Below are positions 39,913 through 42,655 of a stretch of 64,000 nucleotides of DNA, in pieces. A model generated the notes under the pieces. That model searched no databases, was not told the DNA's origin, and saw nothing but the letters and a program-made list of their open reading frames with translations. This DNA is from an uncultured Pelagibacteraceae bacterium (GTDB taxonomy: Bacteria > Pseudomonadota > Alphaproteobacteria > Pelagibacterales > Pelagibacteraceae): NCBI GenBank assembly GCA_902542975.1, contig CACBWM010000002.1, positions 62,001 through 126,000 of the forward strand, given 5' to 3'. Numbering within the stretch: the first letter of the stretch is position 1; each line of letters starts with the position of its first letter. A program made the translations under genes and the position numbers.

Positions 39913-40403
39913 AGAATTTGAATTTTAGTTTTACTATTTATTAACTTTAGCAGAATCAAAAAATCTTTTTCCAATAATCCAATACATCCAGCTGTAGATT
40001 TATAATGTTTTGTTAAGTGTATAAAAATTGCACTACCTTTACCTATATTGGAATTTTTCCAATTATACTTAATTGGAATAAAATAATCATATTTGTAATC
40101 GTTCCTAAATAATTTTTCAGCTTTATACTTAGAATTTAAATCAACTAATTTATTATATTTATTTCTTGAATTTATGTCATTACACCAACCCATATTTTTC
40201 TTTATTTCAAATACTTTTAATTTAGTTTGTGGTATTTTTTTTCTATCTTTTCTATAATAAAGAGAGCCTAATGCGTATTTACCTGTTGGTGTTCTTTTAT
40301 CACCCTCATATTTGTTCTTTGAAAATCCATTTTTTCCCACACAACATTTAAATTTAAAATCATCAAATATTAATGTATGTTTATTTTTTATAATAATTGT
40401 CAT
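39909..40403 (-). CDS. L,D-transpeptidase family protein (YkuD)
   Basis: I set the start at ATG 40403 (MTIIIKNKHTLIF), giving 164 residues; an upstream ATG at 40424 would run past the divergent regulator start. The YkuD motif is IFIHLTKHYKSTAGCIGL, with catalytic His and Cys (H...GC), but GDKRTPTGKYALGSLYY and the lack of a signal peptide place it in the DUF/ErfK-like subgroup found in the cytoplasm or at the membrane. It is predicted to act on peptidoglycan or a similar peptide. It is divergent, with only 11 bases between starts. Confidence 0.85.
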   Translation of the reverse strand: MTIIIKNKHTLIFDDFKFKCCVGKNGFSKNKYEGDKRTPTGKYALGSLYYRKDRKKIPQTKLKVFEIKKNMGWCNDINSRNKYNKLVDLNSKYKAEKLFRNDYKYDYFIPIKYNWKNSNIGKGSAIFIHLTKHYKSTAGCIGLLEKDFLILLKLINSKTKIQIL

Positions 40404-40414
40404 TTTTTTTATTA

Positions 40415-40975
40415 ATGGATTCAAACCAATATTTACTTATTCATAAGTTCCCAACGTTATTTAATATATTAAATGAAATAAAAATTAATTTAAATTTTAA
40501 AATAGAATATTTTGAGGATGATAAATTCAAAAATATAGATAATAGAAATTTAGTAGTTATTTCTGGAGATAAGAAAATTAACTTTCAAAATCAAGCTAAA
40601 ATTGAGTCATATCCAATAAATATTCAAAAATTTATTGAATTAATTAATATTCAATTTTTAAAAAATAAATTTAATCAACAGAATGACGTAAAAGTTGGAA
40701 AATACAGGTTCAATTTAAATTCTAGAGTTATGAAATATGAATTAAAATCACTGCAACTTACCGAAAAAGAGATGAAAATCATAAGTTTCCTTAAAAATTC
40801 TAAAGTACCAATCAGTATAAGAAAACTACAATCAGAAGTTTGGGGATATAAATCGAGATTAGAAACACATACTGTTGAAACTCATGTCTACAGATTAAGA
40901 AAAAAAGTTGAAAAAAAATTTAATGATAAATCATTCATTATAAGTCTTAAAAATGGGTATAAAATCGAAATCTAG
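40415..40975 (+). CDS. Winged-helix (OmpR/PhoB-type) transcriptional regulator, degenerate receiver
   Basis: The C-terminal third is a clear trans_reg_C winged helix: LTEKEMKIISFLKNS, ISIRKLQSEVWGY and THTVETHVYRLRKKVEKKF, then IISLKNGYKIEI. The N-terminal ~100 residues resemble a shrunken receiver, but the phospho-aspartate strand reads LVVISGDKK with no clear acceptor site, so it may work without a kinase. I start at ATG 40415 (MDSNQYL); a TTG at 40397 is possible. It probably controls the divergent L,D-transpeptidase gene, 11 bases away. An ArfA-like gene overlaps its 3' end. Confidence 0.85.
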   Translation: MDSNQYLLIHKFPTLFNILNEIKINLNFKIEYFEDDKFKNIDNRNLVVISGDKKINFQNQAKIESYPINIQKFIELINIQFLKNKFNQQNDVKVGKYRFNLNSRVMKYELKSLQLTEKEMKIISFLKNSKVPISIRKLQSEVWGYKSRLETHTVETHVYRLRKKVEKKFNDKSFIISLKNGYKIEI

Positions 40976-41081
40976 TAAAAACCACTTTGCTAAAGAATTA
41001 TTCTCGAAGAAATACAAACCAAGAGTTATAAAGCCAAAAAAGGGTAAAGGAAGCTTTAGCAGAAAAAATGTTAAAGTCTAG
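40953..41081 (+). CDS. Small ArfA-like ribosome-rescue factor
   Basis: A 42-residue frame starts at ATG 40953, inside the last codons of the regulator gene, and stops at TAG 41079-41081. Its C-terminal half RVIKPKKGKGSFSRK matches the E. coli ArfA core RVEKNKKGKGSYMRK, including the lysine/glycine patch that lies in the empty mRNA channel. The N-terminus (NHFAKELFSKKYKP) aligns with the ArfA helix that recruits RF2. It is shorter than ArfA (72 residues) because the extra tail is missing. It overlaps the regulator by 23 bases and the convergent sugar kinase gene by 11. Confidence 0.75.
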   Translation: MGIKSKSSKNHFAKELFSKKYKPRVIKPKKGKGSFSRKNVKV

Positions 41082-42000
41082 CGCCAATCTGTTGTATAAC
41101 TTTTGAGGACATTTCTTTGCCTTTGTTCAAGCATTCAACAGTATTTAAATTATTTAAATAACCATGCAAAAACCCTGCAGCAAACAAATCACCTGCCCCG
41201 GTAAGATCTTTTATTTCTAAGTTTTTTTCAACTCCATTTTCGGATATTTCATCACCTAATATTGAAATAGCTCCTTTTTCCCCTCTAGTAATAACTATTA
41301 GTTTTTTTAAACTCTTTCCAAACTCAATTACGTCTTTAAAGTTTTTAGCATCTATTAATGACATCATTTCCTGTTCGTTTGCAAAAGTGATATCTAGTTT
41401 ATTTTCTACTAGATCTAAAAAATGTGGTTTATGTCTATCAACACAGAATTGATCTGATAAAGACATAGCAACTTTATTAGCGTTATTAATAGCTTTTTCA
41501 AATGCCTTTTTTGGTTCCCCCTCGTCCCATAAATATCCTTCTAGGAAAATCATTTCTGATTGTTTTATTACCTTGGGATTAATATCGTTCTCGTTTATTT
41601 TTCCCGCAGTGCCAAGGAACGTACACATAGTCCTTTCCGAGTCCGGGGTTACTAAAATTAAACAGGTTCCAGTTGGAAGTTCTTCTTTCTTTTTGTTGTA
41701 AAAATATTCAACATTCTCAGACTTTAAACCATCTTCATATTTATTTCCTAAATCATCGTCACTCACTTTACCAATAAACCCTACTTTATCCCCTAGTTGA
41801 GATAATCCAACAATAGAATTAGCCACCGACCCACCTGATATAGTTTTTTCAATATTTAAATTTGAAATCATTGATTGAAATTCTTTATCATCAAAAATAA
41901 GTTTCATTGTCCCTTTTGTTAATTTATTTTGATTGATGAAATTTTCATCAACTTTACAAATCACATCTACTATTGCATTACCTATCCCTAAAGTTCTCAT
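41071..42000 (-). CDS. PfkB-family sugar/nucleoside kinase (adenosine kinase-like)
   Basis: The product from ATG 42000 is 309 residues (MRTLGIGNAIVDVICKV). The reading frame extends further up but overlaps nth; the one-base gap after nth fits this start. GGSVANSIVGLSQLG is the PfkB substrate loop, VITRGEKGAI the ATP side, and TGAGDLFAAGFLHG (catalytic D271) the second signature. Adenosine kinase is the common label for the SAR11 gene, but substrate is not proven. Confidence 0.88.
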   Translation of the reverse strand: MRTLGIGNAIVDVICKVDENFINQNKLTKGTMKLIFDDKEFQSMISNLNIEKTISGGSVANSIVGLSQLGDKVGFIGKVSDDDLGNKYEDGLKSENVEYFYNKKKEELPTGTCLILVTPDSERTMCTFLGTAGKINENDINPKVIKQSEMIFLEGYLWDEGEPKKAFEKAINNANKVAMSLSDQFCVDRHKPHFLDLVENKLDITFANEQEMMSLIDAKNFKDVIEFGKSLKKLIVITRGEKGAISILGDEISENGVEKNLEIKDLTGAGDLFAAGFLHGYLNNLNTVECLNKGKEMSSKVIQQIGARL

Positions 42001-42001
42001 T

Positions 42002-42655
42002 CTAAGCTTTCTTTGTTTTAATTGGTTTTTTTCTTTTAGGATAACAAGTAGTGCAAATTTTACAAGAAATACCATAACATTCTCTTGCTTTACAATATTG
42101 TCTACCATAATAAATTATTTGAAGATGCAACTTGTTCCAATATTTTTTTGGAAATAAACGCTTTAAATCTTCTTCCGTCTGAATAACATTTTTACCATTA
42201 GTTAAACCCCATCTTTGAGCGAGTCTATGTATATGAGTATCTATTGGAAATGCAGGGTAGCCAAAGCCTTGGGACATAACTACGCTTGCTGTCTTGTGCC
42301 CAACTCCAGGGAGTTGTTCTAATTCTTCAAAAGTTTTTGGAACTTTGCTATTATATTTTTCAACTAAAGTTTTTGAAAGGTTATAGACACTTTTAGCTTT
42401 AATTCTAAAAATACCTATGCTCCTTATTAGTTTTTCTATTTTTTTTCTACCAAGTTTAACAAAGTGTTCAGGTCTATTATATTTTGGATAAATATTTTTG
42501 GTAACACTATTAACATTAACATCTGTACATTGAGCTGAAAGCAAAACAGATATTAATAGTGTGAATATATTTCTGTGTTTTAACGGTATAGGTGTTTTTG
42601 GATAAGTTTTATTTAATATTTTTAAAACTATTTTGGCTCTTTGTTCTTCATTCAT
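42002..42655 (-). CDS. nth: Endonuclease III (base-excision DNA glycosylase)
   Basis: A 217-residue glycosylase/AP lyase that removes oxidised pyrimidines. LPGVGHKTASVV holds the helix-hairpin-helix with catalytic K121, and FPIDTHIHRLAQRWG the aspartate D139. The iron-sulphur loop is unusual: cysteines at 188, 193, 198, 201 and 204 instead of the C-x6-C-x2-C-x5-C pattern. dapB ends one base into its start (TAATG). Confidence 0.95.
   Translation of the reverse strand: MNEEQRAKIVLKILNKTYPKTPIPLKHRNIFTLLISVLLSAQCTDVNVNSVTKNIYPKYNRPEHFVKLGRKKIEKLIRSIGIFRIKAKSVYNLSKTLVEKYNSKVPKTFEELEQLPGVGHKTASVVMSQGFGYPAFPIDTHIHRLAQRWGLTNGKNVIQTEEDLKRLFPKKYWNKLHLQIIYYGRQYCKARECYGISCKICTTCYPKRKKPIKTKKA

Follow-up and report, generated by a model that had tools for sequence, protein, structure and literature searches.

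The window, a 64,000-nucleotide stretch of a Pelagibacteraceae contig, contains a short open reading frame that lies between a winged-helix gene and a convergent kinase gene (Table 1). The frame encodes the peptide MGIKSKSSKNHFAKELFSKKYKPRVIKPKKGKGSFSRKNVKV and overlaps both neighbors, as a preliminary description of this DNA had reported. That description proposed an overlooked ArfA-like ribosome-rescue gene, and we refer to the frame as arfA. The upstream gene starts with TTG, and its only Pfam match above the cut-off is the OmpR-type DNA-binding domain, at residues 118-188. It is probably a regulator coupled to arfA. We take the kinase gene to be adoK and the other neighbor genes to be thiE, yggS, nth, and dapB. 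Pfam testing of the neighbors in this slot covered PF00486 and YkuD (PF03734) only.

Table 1 Features of the arfA locus in the window.
Feature	Positions	Strand	Description	Evidence
arfA-like gene	40953-41081	+	42 codons (42 aa), ATG start, TAG stop	PF03889 match, conservation, dN/dS
N-terminal (putatively RF2-facing) half, residues 10-25	40980-41027	+	aligns with E. coli ArfA 14-29	hhalign, ungapped
Basic, putative mRNA-channel segment IKPKKGKGSFSRK, residues 26-38	41028-41066	+	corresponds to E. coli ArfA 30-42	conservation in 25 SAR11 sequences
Overlap of arfA start with end of winged-helix gene	40953-40975	+	23 bases	
Upstream winged-helix gene	40397-40975	+	OmpR/PhoB-type DNA-binding domain PF00486	PF00486, 47.9 bits; syntenic neighbor
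Convergent kinase gene	41071-42000	-	start chosen inside ORF 41071-42108; stop overlaps arfA stop by 11 bases	

The window peptide matches the ArfA family profile PF03889 with 28.0 bits, above the Pfam cut-off of 25.5 (E 1.5e-6), and this is the single match to the profile at E ≤ 10 in the window's own genome, which is 81% complete. An NCBIfam scan of the peptide gave no match. A PDB search returned six sequences, all named ArfA, at E-values of 0.08 to 0.21. The weakness of this single-sequence similarity and the span of the Pfam match, residues 17-39 only, count against assignment to the family. All 25 sequences of a SAR11 alignment, A1, match PF03889 at E ≤ 0.01, and the profile derived from A1 detects the gene in the window's own genome with an E-value of 3.9e-18. 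Compared with ArfA of other Pseudomonadota, A1 aligns over 37 columns without a gap (hhalign probability 97.6); the comparison sequences come from genomes outside the Alphaproteobacteria in a sample of the phylum, presumably gamma- and former betaproteobacteria. The 42 residues contain no GGQ domain, the trait of ArfB, and a PF00472 scan of them gave no hit. The ArfA-like character of the gene is thus borne out by the above-cut-off PF03889 hit, which had been proposed as a check, by the ungapped profile-profile alignment, and by the conservation of the gene.

The selection acting on the frame was estimated from 140 loci, 124 of which fit a fixed 29-codon core; the remaining 16 were left out of the selection, slot, start, and length/hairpin counts. 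Some genomes recur among the 124 loci, and dN/dS was calculated on the 109 distinct cores. Over 50 disjoint pairs, dN/dS is 0.10 by naive counting with mutation bias uncorrected, and synonymous changes make up 323 of 494 substitutions, where 20% would be expected. Codon positions 1, 2, and 3 carry 90, 64, and 340 substitutions. When the first five or eight codons, which in some loci overlap the upstream gene, are omitted, dN/dS is 0.09 and 0.07, respectively. The frame at 40953-41081 is a genuine gene under strong purifying selection, as the preliminary description had predicted for its synonymous sites.

The surroundings of the gene are conserved as well. Downstream of arfA, 117 of the 124 loci carry a homolog of the window kinase gene in convergent orientation; in 107 of those 117, at most about 20 bases separate the two stops. 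A homolog of the winged-helix gene is found upstream in 110 of the 116 loci that have enough sequence. Of 103 distinct loci, 92 have an arfA start that overlaps the stop of the winged-helix gene, an arrangement that makes translational coupling of the two genes probable. The start codon varies among 103 loci (85 ATG, 9 TTG, 7 GTG, and 2 CTG). A phage gene mistaken for a cellular one was considered and rejected, since the slot is conserved and lies between genes that look cellular.

A six-frame search of 297 genomes of the order Pelagibacterales with PF03889 gave matches at E ≤ 0.01 in 199 genomes, 114 of them above the cut-off and 85 below it; at the same threshold, E. coli was the only one of 14 control genomes to match. 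The A1 profile matched 203 of the 297 genomes at E ≤ 0.001. Inspection by eye of six of the weakest A1 hits showed the N-terminal half but no KGKGS, and three weak PF03889 hits (G008, G014, and G095) are unmatched by A1. After removal of the weak hits, 196 (PF03889) and 197 (A1) of the 297 genomes carry arfA, and both searches find it in 112 of the 150 high-quality genomes. The matching genomes listed have one match each. The frame is therefore conserved across related genomes, as had been anticipated. Named relatives number at least 401 among at least 598 pattern matches, and the 80 listed, mostly labeled isolates and metagenome-assembled genomes, are all Pelagibacteraceae, Pelagibacterales, or Candidatus Pelagibacter records, in agreement with the initial assignment of the DNA to a SAR11-type genome.

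The gene is missing from 38 of the 150 high-quality genomes and is therefore dispensable in some, which counts against a rescue role. The kinase was sought in 15 arfA-less genomes, three of which (G138, G140, and G148) gave no match. In all 12 kinase loci found, the winged-helix gene ends at most about 40 bases from the kinase gene, with no arfA frame between them, and these twelve genomes look like clean losses. The same check of four arfA-carrying genomes showed the frame in three; arfA and the kinase gene of G001, the fourth, are about 1.5 kb apart, which places arfA outside the stretch examined. Within SAR11, the gene appears to have descended by vertical inheritance. The frame-free loci also bear on whether a protein gene exists here at all. 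An open frame arisen by chance, or a regulatory overlap of two genes, would fit the overlap with both neighbors, the very short length, and the variable start codon. It would not produce a dN/dS of 0.07-0.10 over 50 disjoint pairs that is lowest furthest from the upstream gene, nor 12 of 12 arfA-less loci in which the winged-helix gene adjoins the kinase gene with no such frame. Conservation, dN/dS, and the frame-free loci together reject this explanation, to which we assign a negligible probability. The gene is real, overlooked, conserved, and ArfA by descent.

Residue i of the window peptide corresponds to residue i+4 of E. coli ArfA. In the channel tail, P28-S34, R37, and K38 are invariant in the 25 SAR11 sequences. 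The basic tail KKGKGS(Y/F).RK, which had been recognized at the outset as a match to the E. coli ArfA core, is present, and the predicted mRNA-channel segment is essentially intact relative to E. coli ArfA. In the N-terminal half, N10 and L16 are invariant in the same sequences, and A13, K20, and R24 are conserved in at least 90% of them. As described in passages of PMC5378476, residues L19, L24, and F25 of E. coli ArfA bind RF2 residues Trp319, V198, and F217, and P23 stacks on A1492/A1493. At the corresponding E. coli positions, the 25 SAR11 sequences have mostly D/E at 19, an invariant L at 20, often P or K at 23, mostly K at 24, and Y/F at 25. Only F25 of the L19/L24/F25 patch is thus kept, as Y/F, which counts against recruitment of RF2. 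So does the residue at position A18, mostly K/R in SAR11 and K, R, or A in six other alphaproteobacterial copies, since the A18T substitution blocks RF2 activation by E. coli ArfA according to part of a 2021 review (PMC8012679). The residues preceding the tail had been described as aligning with the RF2-binding helix of ArfA; they do align with ArfA, but two of the three hydrophobic RF2 contacts (L19 and L24) are mostly replaced, and the description holds only in part.

The SAR11 proteins are 34-42 residues long, most commonly 35 (44 of 124 loci), and end at about E. coli K44. The preliminary description had noted one shorter form of ArfA; it is indeed short, and it is the standard SAR11 form in 124 loci rather than one odd short gene. 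Two features of its C-terminus count against an active ArfA. It ends a few residues past the point at which E. coli ArfA, cut to 40 residues, is inactive, and the KH motif of ArfA, both as given in sections of the review (PMC8012679), follows the core in none of the 124 SAR11 loci. Several canonical ArfA sequences likewise lack KH.

The SAR11 form shares with ArfA of E. coli, other gammaproteobacteria, and some betaproteobacteria (PF03889; YhdL) the basic tail and the N, L, F/Y, and R positions of the N-terminal half, and both occur in lineages with tmRNA-SmpB and an RF2 bearing a tryptophan in its switch loop. The SAR11 form differs in its length, its ordinary stop codon, the absence of a strong 3' hairpin and of KH, its occurrence in Alphaproteobacteria, and the overlap of its start with a winged-helix gene. 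BrfA of Bacillus and ArfT of Francisella are likewise small rescue peptides that recruit release factors, as portrayed in parts of two papers (PMC8012679; PMC6299226); BrfA is set apart by its description there as distinct from ArfA in sequence (PMC8012679). ArfB (YaeJ) does the same job of backing up tmRNA, but is a GGQ-bearing hydrolase of about 140 residues.

The rescue factors that accompany arfA were surveyed in 41 genomes of the order, of which 19 have KGKGS-type arfA, 16 lack it, and 6 belong to genus g3 or family f2. Alpha-type tmRNA is present in all 41, and SmpB in 39, with none found in the incomplete window genome and in G084. PF00472 matches twice in 39 genomes and once in two, always in frames of 310-374 residues; the matches are one RF1 and one RF2 in the 16 SAR11 genomes read, and RF2 alone was read in one more. 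ArfB is a common alphaproteobacterial backup. In the 41 SAR11 genomes, no PF00472 frame outside 310-374 residues, as expected of ArfB, was detected. As a positive control, a third, weaker PF00472 match is present in 17 of 38 other alphaproteobacteria, and we read it as ArfB from its weaker scores and matched range. A hidden ArfB in SAR11 was rejected on these counts. Since ArfB is undetected in the 41 SAR11 genomes, ArfA is their only detectable backup.

The altered RF2 patch raises the question of the partner. An adaptor descended from ArfA could have RF1 as its partner in place of RF2, or use both factors, as was reported for Francisella ArfT in part of PMC6299226. Such an adaptor would fit the replacement, mostly by D/E and K, of L19 and L24, two of the three E. 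coli residues (F25 is the third) that contact RF2 Trp319, and the presence of both RF1 and RF2 in SAR11. Against it, the switch-loop Trp (IGWGHQIRSY) is present in all 17 SAR11 RF2 sequences read, that of the window genome included, and Trp is absent from the RF1 switch loops read; Y/F is kept at the F25 position; and the positions of the window-genome RF2 that we take for F217 and V198, mapped on an E. coli sequence, hold Phe and Ile. We consider recruitment of RF1 or of both factors unlikely. A partnership of the SAR11 peptide with RF2 is the likely one.

In E. coli, RNase III cuts the arfA mRNA and thereby yields a truncated message, as stated in a portion of PMC4245945. Folding of the 3' region reaches z ≤ -2.9 in 16 of 18 loci from other Pseudomonadota, and some of the hairpins straddle the stop codon. 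Of 36 comparison loci, 20 entered the hairpin calculation; the other 16 were lost to the motif and placement filter, and some of these were recovered later. SAR11 loci have no strong 3' hairpin, with a mean z of -0.15 in the first 45 distinct loci and of 0.27 in all 110 distinct loci; z ≤ -2.9 occurs in one of the 110, and the window locus has a z of -0.9. A non-stop hairpin in SAR11 arfA, whether RNase III site or terminator, was rejected on these values. Unlike its E. coli counterpart, SAR11 ArfA appears to be translated from an mRNA that has an ordinary stop codon, and it would therefore escape silencing by tmRNA via a non-stop message. The tmRNA-gated switch thus seems to have been abandoned in SAR11, and constitutive or operon-level expression may have replaced it. 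The in-gene hairpin is a regulatory trait, outside the protein itself.

The loss of the hairpin implies a different mode of expression. It could therefore be argued that a former ArfA was co-opted for another role on the ribosome, for example as a hibernation or stress peptide that plugs the channel, with only the mRNA-channel tail retained, and the tail is the most strongly conserved part of the protein. We regard such co-option as quite improbable, because N10 and L16 are invariant, A13, K20, and R24 nearly so, and the N-terminal half aligns gap-free to canonical ArfA. An ArfA-like function of the SAR11 peptide is strongly likely.

Relatives of the SAR11 gene occur in a few other Alphaproteobacteria. 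Among 387 genomes of a class sample, seven non-SAR11 genes match PF03889, five of them over the cut-off; two of these five are in genomes with 7-10% contamination, and the weak match L038 looks spurious. The phylum sample added G915. Six of the other alphaproteobacterial ArfA-like sequences match A1 at 98.1% in a profile comparison. The genes L034, L035, L036, and L311 share the core NP.A..L ... (K/R)KGK(G/A)(S/A)Y with the SAR11 form and differ from it in longer frames and an internal hairpin (z -2.2 to -5.7, three with a T run); KH is kept in three of the four. No internal hairpin was found in L032, L033, and L037.

A second type of relative lacks GKGS. In genus g3 and family f2, proteins of 35-44 residues, with starts that we chose, are encoded at about position 1501 of L321-L326 (G009, G027, G054, G018, G077, and G004, respectively). 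They combine the ArfA N-terminal half NP(I/V)AK.LRT.K(F/Y) with a GKGS-less tail, and the neighboring genes are conserved around them in four f2 genomes. DUF7230 (PF23876) matches three of these six proteins, one of them at its cut-off and the other two below it. DUF7230 matches occur in 7 of the 387 class genomes, and a literature search on DUF7230 found no paper. Eight DUF7230-like sequences align with SAR11 ArfA at a profile probability of 96.5% and with ArfA of other Pseudomonadota at 71%. The DUF7230-like alphaproteobacterial frames L330, L332, and L334 have a GC-rich hairpin directly after the core, which in two cases comes with a T run. These hairpins resemble terminators inside arfA, with z below -2 in one of the three; no hairpin is present at that place in L328 and L329.

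ArfA-like proteins are also encoded by marine phages. Pelagibacter phage HTVC027P gp30 was named ArfA (PMC12753301, in the part consulted), and it scores 20.2 bits against PF03889, below the Pfam cut-off. Phages HTVC034P and CRP-212 have ArfA-like frames as well, and the recorded host of HTVC027P and HTVC034P is HTCC1062. The marine-phage proteins resemble the SAR11 form in the N-terminal half and the tail KPKKG(K/R)GSF, and differ in being phage-encoded and in some cases part of longer phage proteins. Searches by tblastn with the SAR11 peptides against phages and plasmids, and with one phage peptide against phages, gave no hits, probably owing to the low-complexity filter, as gp30 does recover relatives; these blanks do not speak for absence. 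A scan of viral contigs gave at least 226 relatives among at least 600 pattern matches. In each of 80 viral stretches retained from it, an open frame surrounds the motif; 27 of these frames exceed about 110 codons, and a search of these stretches for seven SAR11 neighbor genes gave no match. In the L156 protein (IMG/VR), the ArfA core is flanked by N-terminal phrog_2423 and C-terminal phrog_17747, both of unknown function; L133, L140, L157, L186, and L193 (IMG/VR) resemble it by eye, with an ArfA core and a C-terminal domain. Caulobacter phage Cr30 has an unannotated ArfA-like frame between two annotated genes (L336, 332-496). HTVC115P gp18 (L339) and ZZ1p0006 of Acinetobacter phage ZZ1 (L338) combine the ArfA N-terminal half with a GKGS-less tail, comparable to the DUF7230-like set.

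We consider it most likely that the frame encodes a genuine ArfA family member of minimal form that backs up tmRNA-SmpB by recruiting RF2. We infer that the protein is expressed, binds ribosomes, and supports release. In a SAR11 ribosome that has run past the 3' end of a broken message, the basic tail (KPKKGKGSF.RK) would settle into the vacant mRNA entry channel. The N-terminal half would dock at the decoding center and recruit RF2, whose GGQ loop would hydrolyze the peptidyl-tRNA. SAR11 ArfA would thereby back up tmRNA-SmpB in cells where ArfB is undetectable, and it would be made from a stop-codon mRNA as a coupled cistron behind the winged-helix gene. More tentatively, and with doubt about the whole taken together, we speculate that an unrecognized ArfA branch exists in Alphaproteobacteria and phages. 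It would comprise the minimal stop-codon form of SAR11, standing rather than tmRNA-gated, in ArfB-less cells; a GKGS-less, DUF7230-related form in g3, f2, and other alphaproteobacteria; and phage copies that supply rescue to arfA-less hosts, as may hold for HTVC027P and HTVC034P.

SAR11 bacteria are among the most abundant cell groups in the ocean. We found no description of their ribosome rescue beyond tmRNA in the open-licence literature. ArfA and SAR11 are joined there only in the phage report, the consulted part of which mentions no host arfA (PMC12753301). According to passages of the 2021 review (PMC8012679), ArfA is confined to some of the beta- and gammaproteobacteria, and a 2024 survey, as far as its consulted sections go, found arfA in none of 2,376 Alphaproteobacteria, using nhmmer with profiles from annotated genes (PMC11633108). 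Contrary to that census (PMC11633108), the range of ArfA extends to SAR11, a few other Alphaproteobacteria, and marine phages. The SAR11 form is a natural minimal ArfA whose length is close to that of inactive, truncated E. coli ArfA, and its stop-codon message suggests that the non-stop control of arfA, the textbook view, is not universal. The pattern of presence and absence within SAR11, together with the phage copies, makes it directly testable under which circumstances a backup is needed.
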